From contig NZ_CP014546.1 in the NCBI RefSeq assembly GCF_001579805.1, positions 3,720,001-3,784,000 on the forward strand: DNA of 64,000 nt. The letters are read 5' to 3'. This DNA comes from Pseudomonas azotoformans. GTDB taxonomy: Bacteria; Pseudomonadota; Gammaproteobacteria; Pseudomonadales; Pseudomonadaceae. The translations under genes were made by a program, and so were the position numbers. Positions 2,271 through 8,827 of this stretch are shown one piece after another (the first letter of the stretch is position 1; every line of letters starts with the position of its first letter). The notes beneath the pieces were generated by a model. It was not told the origin of the DNA, searched no databases, and saw only the letters and a program-made list of their open reading frames with translations.

Positions 2271-3434
2271 ATGAGCCAGACCCTGAGCCAACTGCGTAAA
2301 TTCGTCTCGCCTGAAATCATCTTTGGTGCCGGCTGCCGGCACAACGTCGGCAACTACGCCAAGACCTTCGGTGCGCGCAAGGTGCTGGTGGTCAGCGACC
2401 CCGGCGTGATCGCCGCCGGTTGGGTGGCCGATGTGGAAGCCAGCCTGCAAGCCCTCGGCATCGACTACTGCCTGTACAGCGCCGTTTCACCCAACCCCCG
2501 CGTCGAAGAAGTGATGACCGGCGCCGAGGTGTACCGCGAAAACCATTGCGACGTGATCGTCGCCATCGGCGGCGGCAGCCCCATGGACTGCGGCAAGGCC
2601 ATCGGCATTGTGGTGGCCCACGGGCGCAGCATTCTTGAGTTCGAGGGCGTCGACACCCTTCGCGTGCCCAGCCCGCCGCTGATCCTGATTCCCACCACTG
2701 CCGGCACCTCGGCGGATGTCTCGCAGTTCGTGATCATTTCCAACCAGCAGGAACGCATGAAGTTCTCCATCGTCAGCAAGGCGGTGGTGCCGGACGTGTC
2801 GCTGATCGACCCGGAAACCACCGCCAGCATGGACCCGTTCCTGTCTGCCTGCACTGGCATCGACGCGCTGGTGCATGCCATCGAGGCGTTCGTCTCCACC
2901 GGCCATGGACCACTCACCGACCCCCATGCGCTGGAAGCGATGCGCCTGATCAATGGCAACCTGGTGCAGATGATCGCCAACCCCACGGACATTGCCCTGC
3001 GCGAAAAAATCATGCTCGGCAGCATGCAGGCGGGGCTGGCATTTTCCAATGCGATCCTCGGCGCGGTGCACGCCATGTCCCACAGCCTCGGTGGTTTTCT
3101 CGATCTGCCCCACGGCCTGTGCAACGCGGTGCTGGTCGAGCATGTGGTGGCGTTCAACTACAGCTCGGCGCCGGAGCGCTTCAAGGTGATTGCCGAAACC
3201 TTTGGCATCGACTGTCGCGGCCTCAATCACCGGCAGATCTGCGGACGGCTGGTGGAGCACCTGATCGCGCTGAAGCACGCCATCGGCTTCCACGAAACCC
3301 TCGGTCTGCATGGGGTGCGCGTGGCGGATATTCCGTTCCTGTCCCAGCATGCGATGGGCGACCCGTGCATCCTCACCAACCCGAGGGAGTCGAGCCAGCG
3401 TGATGTCGAGGTCGTCTATGGCGAAGCTCTCTGA
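2271..3434 (+). CDS. ercA: Iron-containing alcohol dehydrogenase ErcA
   Basis: A 387-residue group III iron-type alcohol dehydrogenase. The nucleotide-binding GGGSPMDCGKAIG lies near residue 100, and the metal ligands fall in GIDALVHAIEAF and in AVHAMSHSLGG followed by DLPHGLCNA. In P. aeruginosa, ErcA belongs to the regulatory cascade that controls ethanol oxidation, and its catalytic role is unclear; that is family knowledge. The stop overlaps the start of the downstream kinase gene, so the two are probably translationally coupled. Position after exaC and pqqA supports the name over a generic Fe-ADH. Confidence 0.85.
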   Translation: MSQTLSQLRKFVSPEIIFGAGCRHNVGNYAKTFGARKVLVVSDPGVIAAGWVADVEASLQALGIDYCLYSAVSPNPRVEEVMTGAEVYRENHCDVIVAIGGGSPMDCGKAIGIVVAHGRSILEFEGVDTLRVPSPPLILIPTTAGTSADVSQFVIISNQQERMKFSIVSKAVVPDVSLIDPETTASMDPFLSACTGIDALVHAIEAFVSTGHGPLTDPHALEAMRLINGNLVQMIANPTDIALREKIMLGSMQAGLAFSNAILGAVHAMSHSLGGFLDLPHGLCNAVLVEHVVAFNYSSAPERFKVIAETFGIDCRGLNHRQICGRLVEHLIALKHAIGFHETLGLHGVRVADIPFLSQHAMGDPCILTNPRESSQRDVEVVYGEAL

Positions 3435-4788
3435 CGACCAGCAGCGCGCGCTCGCGGGGCTGCTGGGGCTCAGCGACCAGTCGGCCCGCAAGAGCCATTA
3501 CCCGGAGCTCACCGCGCGGTTGGATGAACTGGAGGCCGAGCGCAAGCGTTACATCCGCCTCAACGATGAACTGGAACAACGCGTGGCTGCGCGCACCGAT
3601 GAGCTGCTGGAGGCCAACCACAACCTGCAACAGCAGATCGCCCAGCGCGAACAGATCGAACAGGACCTGCGCGATGCCCGCGACGCCGCCCAGGCCGCCA
3701 ACCGCAGCAAGGACAAATACCTCGCCGCCGCCAGCCATGACCTGCTGCAACCACTGAATGCCGCACGGCTGTTGATCGCCACGTTGCGTGAACGGCAGTT
3801 GCCCAGTGTCGAACAGGTGCTTGTGGAGCGCACGCACCAGGCGCTGGAAGGCGCCGAGGATTTGCTCACCGACTTGCTGGATATCTCGCGGCTCGACCAG
3901 GCGGCGGTCAAACCGGATGTGGCGCTGTATCGCCTCGACGAACTGTTCGCGCCGCTCGTCTCGGAATTCCAATCAGTGGCCCAGGCGACCGGGCTGAACC
4001 TGCGGGTGCACACCGGGCGTTATGCGATCAGCACCGACCTGCGGCTGCTGACGCGGATCCTGCGCAATTTCCTCAGCAATGCCTGCCGTTATACCGACGA
4101 TGGCTGCATCCTGTTGGGCGCACGCCGGCGTGGCCATTGCTTGCGCCTGGAGGTGTGGGACACCGGGCGCGGGATTGCGGCGGACCGGCTGCAGGCGATC
4201 TTCCTGGAGTTCAACCAACTCGATGTCGGCCGCGCCTCCGACCGCAAAGGCGTGGGGCTAGGGTTGGCGATTGTCGAGCGGATCGCCGACATCCTGGGGT
4301 ATCCCATCGCCGTGCGTTCCTGGCCGGGGCGGGGCTCGATGTTCAGCATCGAAGTGCCGTTGAGTGATGAGATGCCGTTGCCGATCAGCCAATTGCCGGT
4401 GCAACCGACCACCGGCAATCCGCTGCCGGGGCGGCGTTTGCTGGTGATCGACAACGAAGTGAGCATCCTCGAAAGCATGCGCGCGCTGCTCGGGCAATGG
4501 GGCTGTGAAGTGGTCACCGCCACCGATCAGGCCGGCGCGCTGTTGGCCTTGCAGGGCAGGGCGCCGGAGCTGATTTTGGCGGATTACCACCTGGACCATG
4601 GCGTGGTGGGTTGTGCGGTGGTCAAGCAGCTGCGCGAGCATTTTGCCTGCAAGATCCCGGCGGTCATTATCACGGCCGATCGCACTGACCAATGCCGCCG
4701 TGCGTTGCGCCGCCTGGACGCACCGTTGCTGAACAAACCTGTCAAACCCGGCAAGTTGCGGGCGGTGTTGAGTCAGTTATTGGCCTAG
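3418..4788 (+). CDS. nahK: Hybrid sensor histidine kinase, NahK/ErcS' type
   Basis: 456 residues with no membrane segment and no recognisable input domain. Residues 20-90 look like a coiled coil rich in Leu, Glu and Arg. A histidine box SHDLLQPLNAARL follows near residue 105, then an ATPase domain with NFLSNACRY, DTGRGI and GVGLGLAI. The C-terminal 120 residues form a receiver domain with LLVIDNE and the phospho-acceptor in ILADYHLD. I chose the ATG with GAGG just upstream; an ATG 15 bases earlier is possible. It overlaps ercA by 17 bases. Family knowledge: such kinases feed the HptB/biofilm network or the Erc ethanol cascade. The partner here is inferred. Confidence 0.8.
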   Translation: MAKLSDDQQRALAGLLGLSDQSARKSHYPELTARLDELEAERKRYIRLNDELEQRVAARTDELLEANHNLQQQIAQREQIEQDLRDARDAAQAANRSKDKYLAAASHDLLQPLNAARLLIATLRERQLPSVEQVLVERTHQALEGAEDLLTDLLDISRLDQAAVKPDVALYRLDELFAPLVSEFQSVAQATGLNLRVHTGRYAISTDLRLLTRILRNFLSNACRYTDDGCILLGARRRGHCLRLEVWDTGRGIAADRLQAIFLEFNQLDVGRASDRKGVGLGLAIVERIADILGYPIAVRSWPGRGSMFSIEVPLSDEMPLPISQLPVQPTTGNPLPGRRLLVIDNEVSILESMRALLGQWGCEVVTATDQAGALLALQGRAPELILADYHLDHGVVGCAVVKQLREHFACKIPAVIITADRTDQCRRALRRLDAPLLNKPVKPGKLRAVLSQLLA

Positions 4789-4852
4789 GTCAACAGGTCC
4801 CAGATGGTTTTGCCCCATGCTCAAGGCATGATCTAGAGCCTTGGAGCACACG

Positions 4853-6316
4853 ATGAGCGCGGCATCCTATAAATTACCCCTGGGCCTGGTGGTCGCCGTG
4901 CTGGTGATGGCCGGCGTGCTGCTGTTGCCGCTGCCCGCCGACTTGCCGGTGGCCGGGCATCGCATGCTGGCGATCCTCGCGTTTGCCGTGGTGGTGTGGA
5001 TCACCGAAGCGGTGTCCTATGAAGCCAGCGTGATCATGATCACCTCGCTCATGGCCTTTCTGCTCGGCACGGCGCCGTCGCTGCAAGACTCCACTCATTT
5101 GATTGGCACCAGCCCGGCCATCAGCATGGCGCTGACCGGCTTCTCCAACCCGGCGCTGGCGCTGGTGGCGGGCGCATTGTTTATCGCCGCCGCCATGACC
5201 CACACCGGCCTGGACCGGCGTATCGCCTTGGTCACCCTGAGTCGCGTCGGCACCAGCACCCGACGCATCCTGCTGGGGGCGATTGCGGTGACCATTCTGC
5301 TCAGCCTGGTGGTGCCCAGCGCCACGGCGCGCAGTGCTTGCGTGGTGCCGATCATGATGGGCGTGATCGCTGCGTTCGGCGTGGACAAGCGCTCGAACAT
5401 TGCCGCCGGCATCATGATCGTGGTGGCCCAGGGCACCAGCATCTGGAACGTTGGCATCCAGACCGCCGCCGCGCAGAACCTGCTGACCGTTGGCTTTATG
5501 GACAAGATGCTTGGTCAGCGCGTGTCGTGGATCGACTGGCTGATCGCGGGGGCGCCGTGGGCGTTGATCATGTCGGCGGTGTTGCTGTTCCTGGTGCTTA
5601 AATTGCTGCCGCCGGAGACCGACAGCATTCCCGGTGGCAAGGAGGCGGTGGCGCAATCGCTGGTAGATATCGGGCCGATGACCGGGCCGCAGAAGCGCCT
5701 GTTGACGGTGTCGGTGATGTTGCTGCTGGCCTGGGCCACGGAAGGGCGTTTGCACAGTTTTGACACCACCTCGACCACGTACGCGGGGTTGGTGTTGCTG
5801 TTGCTGCCGGGTATCGGCGTGATGACCTGGAAAGATGTGCAGTCGCGGATCCCGTGGGGCACGGTGATTGTGTTCGGGGTGGGCATCAGCCTGGGCACGG
5901 CGCTGTTGACCACCCAGGCGGGGCAGTGGTTGGGGGCTGCGGTGGTGGCGCACACGGGGTTGGATCAGGTGGGGCCGCTGGGGGTGTTTGCGATTCTGGG
6001 GGCGTTTTTGATTGTGATTCATTTGGGGTTTGCCAGTGCCACGGCGTTGACCTCGGCGCTGCTGCCGATTTTGATTGCGGTGTTGCAGACGTTGCCGGGG
6101 GAGTTCAGTCGGCTGGGGATGACGATGCTATTGGGGTTTGTGATGAGTTATGGGTTTATTCTGCCGATCAATGCGCCGCAGAATATGGTGTGTCTGGGGA
6201 CGGGGACGTTTACGGCGCGGCAGTTTGCCAAGGTTGGGGTTTTGGTGACGCTGGTTGGTTATTTGTTGATGTTGGTGTTTGCGGTGACTTACTGGAGTTG
6301 GTTGGGGTGGGTTTGA
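4853..6316 (+). CDS. DASS/SLC13 family divalent-anion transporter
   Basis: A 487-residue inner-membrane protein with about 11-12 hydrophobic segments. Two repeated SAT-type helix-hairpin motifs, in VVPSATARSACVVP and in HLGFASATALTSALLP, resemble the substrate/sodium sites of the SLC13 (DASS) family, which imports di- and tricarboxylates or sulfate. GGAG six bases before the ATG fixes the start; an in-frame TTG twelve bases earlier is less likely. The last 150 codons use GGG, TTT and GTG much more than the first 330, a visible shift in codon choice. Substrate cannot be told from sequence. It is separated from nahK by 64 bases. Confidence 0.8.
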   Translation: MSAASYKLPLGLVVAVLVMAGVLLLPLPADLPVAGHRMLAILAFAVVVWITEAVSYEASVIMITSLMAFLLGTAPSLQDSTHLIGTSPAISMALTGFSNPALALVAGALFIAAAMTHTGLDRRIALVTLSRVGTSTRRILLGAIAVTILLSLVVPSATARSACVVPIMMGVIAAFGVDKRSNIAAGIMIVVAQGTSIWNVGIQTAAAQNLLTVGFMDKMLGQRVSWIDWLIAGAPWALIMSAVLLFLVLKLLPPETDSIPGGKEAVAQSLVDIGPMTGPQKRLLTVSVMLLLAWATEGRLHSFDTTSTTYAGLVLLLLPGIGVMTWKDVQSRIPWGTVIVFGVGISLGTALLTTQAGQWLGAAVVAHTGLDQVGPLGVFAILGAFLIVIHLGFASATALTSALLPILIAVLQTLPGEFSRLGMTMLLGFVMSYGFILPINAPQNMVCLGTGTFTARQFAKVGVLVTLVGYLLMLVFAVTYWSWLGWV

Positions 6317-6333: not shown

Positions 6334-6612
6334 GGGTGTATATCCGTTATTTGGGTGACGGCTACTTATGGTTCCGCTCTTACAGCGGCTCACTTTGGAA
6401 AAGCCCCAAAGTAAGCAAAGGGCTCTTGCCCCAACACTCGGCACCTCGCCTCGGCTCGGTGTGCCCTCACTCCGGCTTGAATCCGTGGGCCGCCGCGATG
6501 GGCCATCCTTGGCCCAGCGCGGCTAACCCGGCGTCCTGCCGGGTTACCCACGGATTCAAGCCTGCGTTCGGCCAGCGTGTTTGACGGGGCGCCTCAGATC
6601 AAAAGCAAAAGC
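6334..6612 (+). repeat. Left arm of composite inverted repeat, folded element
   Basis: This arm reads in the opposite sense to 6795-7079 with long blocks of identity, for example GGTTCCGCTCTTACAGCGG, CTCTTGCCCCAACACTCGG and GTGTTTGACGGGGCGCC. Inside is a clover-like fold. A perfect 14-bp closing stem joins CTTGAATCCGTGGG (6476-6489) to 6547-6560. Two hairpins lie within it: GGGCCA-TCCT-TGGCCC (6500-6515) and AACCCGGC-GTCCT-GCCGGGTT (6525-6545). It is probably a dispersed repeat family of pseudomonads; the family name is not asserted. Confidence 0.85.
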
Positions 6613-6661
6613 GCGGCGGCCTAGTAGCCGACCGGTCTCTGGAAGCCGGTCTCGGTCCAAA

Positions 6662-6751
6662 TGTGGGAGCGGGCTTGCTCGCGAAGGCGGGGTGTCAGCT
6701 ATTACATCTTTGACTGATCCACCGCTTTCGCGAGCAAGCCCGCTCCCACAA
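6662..6751. repeat. REPIN (two inverted REP sequences)
   Basis: TGTGGGAGCGGGCTTGCTCG and its near-perfect reverse complement at the other end flank about 30 bases of unrelated sequence. This is the typical arrangement of a REP doublet forming hairpin (REPIN) in P. fluorescens-group genomes, non-autonomous elements moved by RAYT transposases. It sits exactly in the middle of the larger inverted repeat. Confidence 0.9.
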
Positions 6752-6794
6752 TTTAGATCTCAGGTAGACATCAATCTGCTCTGGCTCTGGCTCT

Positions 6795-7079
6795 GTTTTT
6801 GATTTTGATCTTAGGCGCCCCGTCAAACACGCTGGCCGGAATTCGGCAGGGATTTGGGGGGTAAACCGGCAGGGATGCCGGTTTAGCCGCCCCGCGCCAT
6901 GGATGGCGCGTGGCGGCGGCCCCCCAAATCACTGTCGGATTACGGGCATACCGAGCCTAGGCGAGGTACCGAGTGTTGGGGCAAGAGCGTTTTGCTTACT
7001 TTTGCGCTCTTCAAAAGTGAGCCGCTGTAAGAGCGGAACCAATTTCAGCCGTTACCGCAGCAACGGATATGTACACCAC
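6795..7079 (-). repeat. Right arm of composite inverted repeat, folded element
   Basis: Inverted partner of 6334-6612. The same fold is kept with different bases. The closing stem is GATTTGGGGGG (6851-6861) with CCCCCCAAATC (6920-6930). The inner hairpins are AAACCGGC/GCCGGTTT (6863-6884) and CGCGCCAT/ATGGCGCG (6893-6910). Paired changes that keep pairing argue that the folded form matters. Confidence 0.83.
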
Positions 7080-7180: not shown

Positions 7181-8827
7181 ATGAACAAATACACCCCCCA
7201 CACCTGGGAACCCCACGAGCGCCCAAGCCTCCCAGGTTCACCGTCTACCCCGCTGCACCCCACGCACAAGCGTTGGCTGTTCGCAATGGTCGGCGTGCTG
7301 GTGGCAATCACCGGGGGCCTGGGTAATGCGTTGGTCATCGCCAACCTGCAATACCTGCAAGGCGCCCTCGGCGCGACCACCGCCGAAATGGCCTGGCTGC
7401 CCGCCGCCTATGTCATGACCAACGTCTGCATGAACCTGCTGCTGGTGAAGTTCCGCCAACAGTTCGGCCTGCGCGCCTTCACCGAAGTGTTCCTGGTGCT
7501 GTACGCGCTGGTCACCTTCGGCCACTTGTTCGTCAACGACCTCAGCTCAGCCATCGCCGTGCGCGCAGCCCATGGCATGGTCGGCGCGGCGCTGAGTTCG
7601 CTGGGCTTGTACTACATGATCCAGGCGTTCCCGGCCAAGTGGCGCTTGAAGGCGCTGGTACTGGGCTTGGGCACCGCGCAACTGGCTTTACCCTTGGCAC
7701 GCCTGTTTTCCGAAGACTTGCTGCAAATCGCCGAGTGGCGCGGCCTGTACCTGTTCGAGCTGGGCATGGCGTTGATCTGCCTGGGTTGCGTGTTCCTGCT
7801 CAAACTTCCGCCTGGCGACCGCTTCAAAACCTTTGAAAAACTCGACTTCCTCACCTTCGCCATCCTCGCCACCGGCGTGGCCTTGCTCTGCGCGGTGTTG
7901 TCCCTGGGCCGCATCGACTGGTGGCTGGAAGCGCCCTGGATCGGCATCGCCTCGGCCTGTTCCCTGGTGCTGATCATGGCCGGCCTGGCCATCGAGCATA
8001 ACCGTGCGAACCCGATGTTGATGACCCGATGGCTGGGCAGTGGCGTGATGATCCGCCTGGCGTTGGCGGTGATCCTGATTCGCATGGTGCTGTCGGAGCA
8101 GTCCACCGGCGCGGTGGGGTTCATGCAGATGTTGAACATGAGCTACCAGCAGATGCACACCCTGTACGTGGTGATGCTCGCCGGGGCGATTGCCGGGCTG
8201 GTGGTCAGTGCGTTGACCATCAACCCGGCGCACCTGTTGATGCCGTTGGTGATTTCCCTGGCGCTGATGGCCACCGGCTCGGTGATGGACAGTTTTTCCA
8301 GCAACCTCACCCGCCCACAGAACCTGTACATCAGCCAGTTCCTGCTAGGCTTCGGCGGCACGTTCTTCCTCGGCCCAACCATGGTGTTGGGCACCAAGAA
8401 CGTGCTGGCCAACCCTCGTAACCTGGTGAGTTTTTCGGTGATGTTCGGGATTTGCCAGAACCTCGGCGGCCTGATTGGCGCGGCGTTGCTGGGCACGTTC
8501 CAGATCGTGCGCGAGAAATACCACTCCAGCATGATCGTCGAACACCTGACCCTGCTCGACCCGCGTGTGGCCGCGCGGGTGCAGAGCGGCGGCTCGGCCT
8601 ACGGCGGCATTGTCGCCGACCCCGAGCTGCGCAACCTGATGGGCATTCGCAGCCTGGCCACGGCGGCGACCCGTGAGGCGAACGTGATGGCCTACAACGA
8701 TGTCTTCATGTTGATCGCGATCATCGCGATACTCACCATGATCTGGATCTTTATCCGCAGTCTGTGGCTGATGAGCACCACCCGAGCAGCAGCCACTCCC
8801 GTTCAACCCAGCGGCGCACCTTCATGA
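7181..8827 (+). CDS. MFS multidrug efflux pump, DHA2/EmrB-like
   Basis: A 548-residue integral membrane protein with about 14 hydrophobic segments, the size and topology of the DHA2 drug:proton antiporters (EmrB/FarB type) that pair with a periplasmic adaptor. MAWLPAAYVMTNVCMNLLLVKFRQQFGLR near residues 68-96 looks like the TM2 and loop 2-3 region. The stop codon overlaps the ATG of the HlyD-like adaptor gene (ATGA), so the two form a two-gene operon. The exported compound is unknown. The ribosome site is weak (GGTCACGGA directly before ATG). Confidence 0.85.
   Translation: MNKYTPHTWEPHERPSLPGSPSTPLHPTHKRWLFAMVGVLVAITGGLGNALVIANLQYLQGALGATTAEMAWLPAAYVMTNVCMNLLLVKFRQQFGLRAFTEVFLVLYALVTFGHLFVNDLSSAIAVRAAHGMVGAALSSLGLYYMIQAFPAKWRLKALVLGLGTAQLALPLARLFSEDLLQIAEWRGLYLFELGMALICLGCVFLLKLPPGDRFKTFEKLDFLTFAILATGVALLCAVLSLGRIDWWLEAPWIGIASACSLVLIMAGLAIEHNRANPMLMTRWLGSGVMIRLALAVILIRMVLSEQSTGAVGFMQMLNMSYQQMHTLYVVMLAGAIAGLVVSALTINPAHLLMPLVISLALMATGSVMDSFSSNLTRPQNLYISQFLLGFGGTFFLGPTMVLGTKNVLANPRNLVSFSVMFGICQNLGGLIGAALLGTFQIVREKYHSSMIVEHLTLLDPRVAARVQSGGSAYGGIVADPELRNLMGIRSLATAATREANVMAYNDVFMLIAIIAILTMIWIFIRSLWLMSTTRAAATPVQPSGAPS

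Follow-up and report, generated by a model that had tools for sequence, protein, structure and literature searches.

RsmX, RsmY, RsmZ, CsrB and CsrC are single-locus sRNA genes, and REPINs are REP doublets moved by RAYTs, a definition that to our knowledge does not include arms of ~290 nt with an RNA fold on each side. The element analyzed here has a REPIN at its centre and resembles the mentioned sRNAs in its several hairpins with ANGGA loops, by which sponge sRNAs capture CsrA-family proteins (available part of PMC7366521); unlike these, it is a dispersed repeat located after stop codons. It matches the TwoAYGGAY RNA (RF01731, clan CL00106), sharing with it the covariance model and the arrangement in which an outer stem carries two GGA hairpins. 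In the available part of Weinberg 2010, this RNA is listed from human gut, gamma-Proteobacteria and Clostridiales, and marked as probably not cis-regulatory. It was proposed as a CsrA ligand from a motif match, and tandem G-A mispairs were noted in one of its stems (PMC4333381, sections available). A copy number in the dozens per genome, an arrangement in inverted pairs whose stems differ, and a REPIN core, all features of the element studied here, were not found described for TwoAYGGAY RNA in the accessible portions of these sources. Among intergenic repeats of P. fluorescens, the available part of Silby 2009 describes R178 (101 bp, with inverted repeats of 11 bp inside it), R200 (320 bp), R30 and R26; their sizes and copy numbers suggest, as a guess from size, that some of them overlap with the core or the arm of the present element. 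Compared by description, neither an RNA nor a REPIN composite is reported for these families in that part of the paper. The RNA family is already known, and the inverted pair that follows stop codons, with a REPIN at its centre and diversified stems, appears to be new, as judged by literature searches that covered the Silby families by description. In the literature searched, no paper linking CsrA with dispersed repeats of this kind was found.

The window analyzed was a stretch of 64,000 nt from the genome of Pseudomonas azotoformans. The element and the neighbouring genes were located in it as follows:

4856-6316, + strand: upstream gene, Na_sulph_symp (PF00939) transporter; start codon provisional (the ORF opens at 4841), stop ~22 nt before the unit
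6338-7078, no strand: whole inverted unit (arm L - REPIN - arm R), with ends GTATATCC... and ...GGATATGTACAC set by comparison with other places in the genome
6338-6475, sense on - strand: arm L outer segment, from DNA alignments across the same genome
6467-6569, - strand: arm L TwoAYGGAY RNA, Rfam RF01731, 49.9 bits
6476-6489 with 6547-6560, - strand: arm L outer stem P1, from fold and sequence check
6500-6515, - strand: arm L hairpin 2 (strands 6500-6505/6510-6515), sense loop AAGGAT at 6505-6510
6525-6545, - strand: arm L hairpin 1 (strands 6525-6532/6538-6545), sense loop AGGAC at 6533-6537
6569-6610, - strand: arm L inner conserved segment, 95% complementary to 6797-6838
6663-6749, no strand: REPIN, two inverted REPs of one class (6663-6685 and 6727-6749); the 23-mer is class PF9 as printed in the available part of PMC3686654
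6797-6838, + strand: arm R inner conserved segment, complementary to 6569-6610
6828-6954, + strand: arm R TwoAYGGAY RNA, Rfam RF01731, 59.5 bits
6851-6861 with 6920-6930, + strand: arm R outer stem P1, from fold and sequence check
6863-6884, + strand: arm R hairpin 1 (strands 6863-6870/6877-6884), loop AGGGAT at 6871-6876
6894-6909, + strand: arm R hairpin 2 (strands 6894-6900/6903-6909), loop ATGGAT at 6899-6904
6936-7078, + strand: arm R outer segment, from comparison with arm L and other copies
7181-8827, + strand: downstream gene, MFS_1 (PF07690) transporter, from domain match

The unit is thus ordered as outer segment, folded core, inner segment and REPIN, followed by the mirror-image series, and the inverted similarity of this copy extends further, to 6318 and 7092. 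ORFs of 85, 73 and 89 aa lie across it. Both cores consisted of two GGA-loop hairpins on one outer stem, with their sense strands pointing outwards, and both exceeded the gathering cut-off of RF01731 (43 bits). Folding was markedly more stable than that of shuffled sequences (z = -6.05 for arm R, and -6.28 and -7.77 for arm L, one value per strand; 0/200 shuffles each). The initial annotation had described two inverted arms sharing long blocks, and such blocks were recovered (157 nt at 80%, 68 nt at 75% and 42 nt at 95% complementary); all the strands it had named, said to differ in sequence between arms yet stay paired, were located in both arms. Two of its helices, GGGCCA/TGGCCC and GCGCCAT/ATGGCGC, are present, but their innermost A-T sits inside a six-base sense loop (AAGGAT and ATGGAT, respectively) closed by C-G. 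The fold and the inverted pair had been recognized, while the match to Rfam, the CsrA-type character of the loops, the REPIN at the centre and the number of copies had all been missed.

That covariation between the two copies implies selection for the fold had also been claimed. Two copies by themselves are insufficient, but the genus-wide set proves such selection, and the interpretation is supported. A version of the multi-copy covariation check that had been proposed was run, and passed, with RNAalifold on 26 aligned cores, hand-picked from covariance-model matches, and double compensatory changes were found in 28 of the 43 pairs. When each genome contributed a single core (81 of 89 loci), pairs 2-5 were Watson-Crick in 98.1% of cases for hairpin 1 and 97.5% for hairpin 2, as counted in loop-anchored, ungapped hairpins, with maxima of 75.3% and 84.0% in 2000 permutations; sliding the hairpin strands by one base reduced the values to 37-61%. 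Genus cores were found with a covariance model and counted only if the loop motif was present and the hairpins had 4 or more pairs (155 of 161 passed), so that this set is biased towards paired stems, and the constancy of the closing C-G and of GGA in the 81-locus set follows by construction, because both belong to the search motif. Among the 26 aligned cores, GGA was kept in 50 of 52 loops (exceptions: L090 hairpin 2 and L119 hairpin 1).

A model-free check was based on arms found by the outer flank alone. This set comprised 39 distinct arms, two of them the window's own (L157); a 40th alignment (L172 at 1611) repeats an arm already counted. Two canonical loops were present in 27/39 arms, one hairpin was altered or lost in five (L159, L167, L170 twice and L185), a wholly different branched core was found in five (L177, L178, L179, L181 and L186), and a recognizable core was absent in two (L166 and L169). 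Within the P. azotoformans genome, all 39 arms taken by flanking anchors carried two canonical loops, at places located mostly by the covariance model. The alternative multi-branched core lies upstream of the flank in sense orientation, and four of its five loci hold GAGAGGAGGTG; no Rfam match was obtained over it in the four loci scanned (L178, L179, L181 and L186), and L181 has C4 antisense RNA matches away from it. A chimeric core was observed in the L051 arm at ~3153-3234, in which hairpin 2 is of type R while hairpin 1 and the outer stem are of type L; we take it as a sign of cassette exchange between arms.

The initial annotation had left undecided whether the fold acts in RNA or as cruciform DNA. 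G-T and A-C mispairs are expected to be equally frequent in a stem without RNA selection. Counts for the outer stem were 77 G-T vs. 3 A-C with one arm per genome (78 of 89 loci), and 133 vs. 4 in the whole set (155 of 161 distinct cores), or 52 vs. 4 as distinct contexts. The ratio was 14:0 in the flank-selected set, which was found without the covariance model, and 13:0 in the P. azotoformans genome, at places taken from that model. The same test was uninformative for the two short hairpins, whose stems are nearly perfect (3:3 for hairpin 1 and 6:4 for hairpin 2, distinct hairpins). The excess in the outer stem favours a conserved fold that would act as RNA of the outward strand over cruciform DNA. 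Further mispairs were common in the outer stem (142 G-A and 48 G-G, 78 loci), with recurrent G-A/A-G positions there and, in some lineages, also below hairpin 1, as scored in the family-wide set. The recurrent G-A mispairs recall the tandem-GA stem noted for TwoAYGGAY RNA in the available part of PMC4333381.

The P. azotoformans genome contained 42 RF01731 matches, 41 of them over the cut-off. Collection by hand from alignments gave 27 places, 19 with two arms or their remains and 8 with one. A DNA search with the outer arm gave at least 41 alignments of at least 70 nt (40 of 52 candidates scored); 40 of the 41 fall in the 27 places and one elsewhere (4471210). Across the genus, at least 135 of 199 Pseudomonas genomes had a match, over the cut-off in at least 120, under stricter filters and with ~13 candidates scored per genome. 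At this depth 64 genomes had none, indicating that members of the genus can live without the element. Up to 57 matches per genome (G113, 64 candidates scored) were found in two sets of 30 genomes, chosen because matches were present. Of 185 gammaproteobacterial genomes, 13 matched, that of P. azotoformans included.

The REPIN centre and the patchy occurrence of the unit bear on its mobility. In the 17 of 19 own units examined for it, the central REP belonged to PF9 (5), PF12 (5) or PF3 (4), or was unmatched (3), allowing two mismatches; class names are those of the available part of PMC3686654, where the label PF3 was deduced from its place before PF4. At the orthologous site in G004, 87-88% identical on both sides, the unit is absent and part of a REP is present. 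Arm sequence followed the orthologous gene in 9 of 30 relatives (the first 30 of 80 loci listed); of these nine, four reach the contig end inside the arm and L227 holds a fragment. Only the outer ends of the arm are found in L228 (P. costantinii), where at 4369-4657 both of them, as seen by eye, wrap a short REP-like stretch without the TwoAYGGAY core. Fifteen of the 21 armless relatives were inspected and showed other REPINs, short gaps or possible relics, L204, L208 and L216 resembling decayed relics by eye. A recent insertion at a clean empty site was considered, and is weakened by these other REPINs and relic-like sequences. As far as the aligned loci can tell, the orthologous site shows turnover rather than simple gain. 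Apart from this, an IS of ~1.25 kb with rve integrase and HTH_21, which we take to be IS3-like, was found at one arm spot, next to GTAAGCA/GTAACCA, in four own units, at the following positions:

L038:1851-3102, IS copy in arm
L040:1948-3224, IS copy in arm
L049:3666-4911, IS copy in arm
L052:1861-3112, IS copy in arm

From its placement, this IS seems to be a guest that inserts site-specifically into the repeat.

Recognition of the hairpins as single-stranded or cruciform DNA by a transposase of the REP/RAYT or IS200/IS605 style, with the loop as the DNA site for movement, would account for the occupation of the site in some relatives and not in others, for the central REP falling into one of three published classes in 14 of the 17 own units, and for the order of adjacent pairs. 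Minus-then-plus pairs are the rule (15/15 in the own genome, 28/35 in the genus and 11/13 in the flank set); six minus-then-plus neighbours and one plus-then-minus were seen in G369 and G297, and one plus-plus in G301. We nevertheless regard this explanation as unlikely. The large outer-stem excess of G-T over A-C is unexpected for DNA, in which both strands would count; the loop matches the RsmE site; no arm was present in the 3.3-kb loci of either of the two Y1-transposase matches in the own genome; and no target-site duplication was seen by eye at the unit ends. One Y1-transposase match, G000:C1:1694788-1695072, has two internal TAG stops.

With respect to genes, none of the 27 own places lay between divergent genes, 20 being co-directional and 7 convergent according to gene calls made with a crude purpose-made ORF caller. 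A stop codon was found within 36 nt of a unit end in 18 of 19 own units (exception: L031). Of 15 co-directional units, 14 lay closer to the upstream stop than to the downstream start; one of the 14 is L037:2988, whose downstream distance is unreliable as the called ORF starts inside the unit. So short a gap leaves little space for a terminator, from which we infer that transcripts run into the unit. This position just after stop codons, together with the very stable whole-unit fold of the window unit (-552 kcal/mol) and the tail-to-tail bias of such repeats given in the available part of Silby 2009, would also suit a stabilizer of mRNA 3' ends or a terminator working from either side, with incidental GGA loops. 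That possibility seems improbable to us, since loops are kept while stems vary, and a plain terminator or stabilizer needs no fixed loop; moreover, no U-run was noticed after the window arms when read by eye.

A further feature of the units is that their two arms carry different stems. The loop motif identified 54 inverted pairs, and in 48 of them the cores were different, by more than 3 differences or unequal length (14/15 in the own genome, 26/28 in the genus, 7/10 in the flank set, where L157 is the window's unit again, and 1/1 in the class). Whole-unit folds were calculated for both strands of 12 of the 19 own units. Both GGA hairpins formed at probability 1.0 on all 22 strands of the 11 heterotypic units, and on neither strand (0/2) of the homotypic unit L037:2988. 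In the other sets (39 pairs), the 68 heterotypic strands kept both hairpins in 17 cases and one or more in 30 (15 and 28 of 66, respectively, without L157), and GGA hairpins were kept on 0 of 10 homotypic strands. These are equilibrium predictions, and folding during transcription could differ. A general rule by which different stems keep the GGA loops open is consequently upheld only partly beyond the own genome. Two other associations were rejected. Arm-arm co-evolution within units found no support, as outer segments were 88.4% alike within units vs. 90.0% between units, a within-unit value reached by 4983 of 5000 permutations (14 of 19 units used). Neither were outer arms linked to core type, likeness being 87.5% for both same and different types (873 of 2000 permutations, 40 arms). 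Such independence of the far outer segments from core type in the own genome suggests that outer arms were reassorted while one core of each kind was kept. A selfish repeat whose RNA fold serves its own spread alone, as a range of 0 to >50 matches per genome and the possible relics seen by eye at the orthologous site might indicate, is very unlikely in our view, given that examination of both Y1-transposase loci of the own genome revealed no linked transposase and that outer segments reassort freely between core types whose cores are near-invariant there.

The loops may point to a protein partner. In three of the four window hairpins an ANGGAN hexaloop is closed by C-G, the fourth (arm L hairpin 1) having the five-base AGGAC. 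The RsmE site determined by NMR is an ANGGAN hexanucleotide loop, SELEX loops are mostly of six nt, with AC pairing to GU, and most SELEX hairpins have four or fewer contiguous pairs (available part of PMC7652899). Genes of the CsrA family were present in all 15 element-bearing genomes checked, with three in the own genome. The arm loops match the RsmE/CsrA landing site, and the repeats may be candidate scattered binding sites. Hairpin stems in the arms are often of 5-9 bp and G+C-rich, longer than in most SELEX ligands, and the affinity for Rsm proteins may accordingly be low.

Taken as a whole, the unit is, on balance, probably a dispersed RNA module of 3' UTRs that binds Rsm proteins; its transcription, Rsm binding and regulatory effect are what we infer. 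Each arm would encode a TwoAYGGAY RNA made of a long outer stem and two short hairpins with ANGGAN (or AGGAC) loops. Transcripts passing the stop codon would enter the inverted unit, where the far arm would be read in sense from either side, giving one GGA-bearing RNA whichever way transcription comes. The two loops of an arm could each occupy one face of an RsmA/RsmE (CsrA-family) dimer, and this binding may act on the 3' end of the host mRNA, while dozens of copies together might draw on the Rsm protein pool of the cell. According to the equilibrium predictions for this genome, the different stems of the arms would prevent the antisense arm of a unit from unfolding its sense arm. A broader version, which we put forward tentatively and consider rather doubtful, is that of a dispersed Rsm-binding network, in which inverted stem-diversified TwoAYGGAY pairs at gene 3' ends would feed a shared decoy pool from either direction, their stems held apart so that antisense does not cancel the RNA.

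Should RsmA/RsmE bind these loops, one class of intergenic repeats in bacteria would join a global regulatory circuit, and differences in copy number among species could shift the set point of the Gac/Rsm system. The dispersed Rsm-binding module, if true, would moreover assign a function to an Rfam family that lacks one, and account for the evolution of different stems under one fold in two inverted copies.
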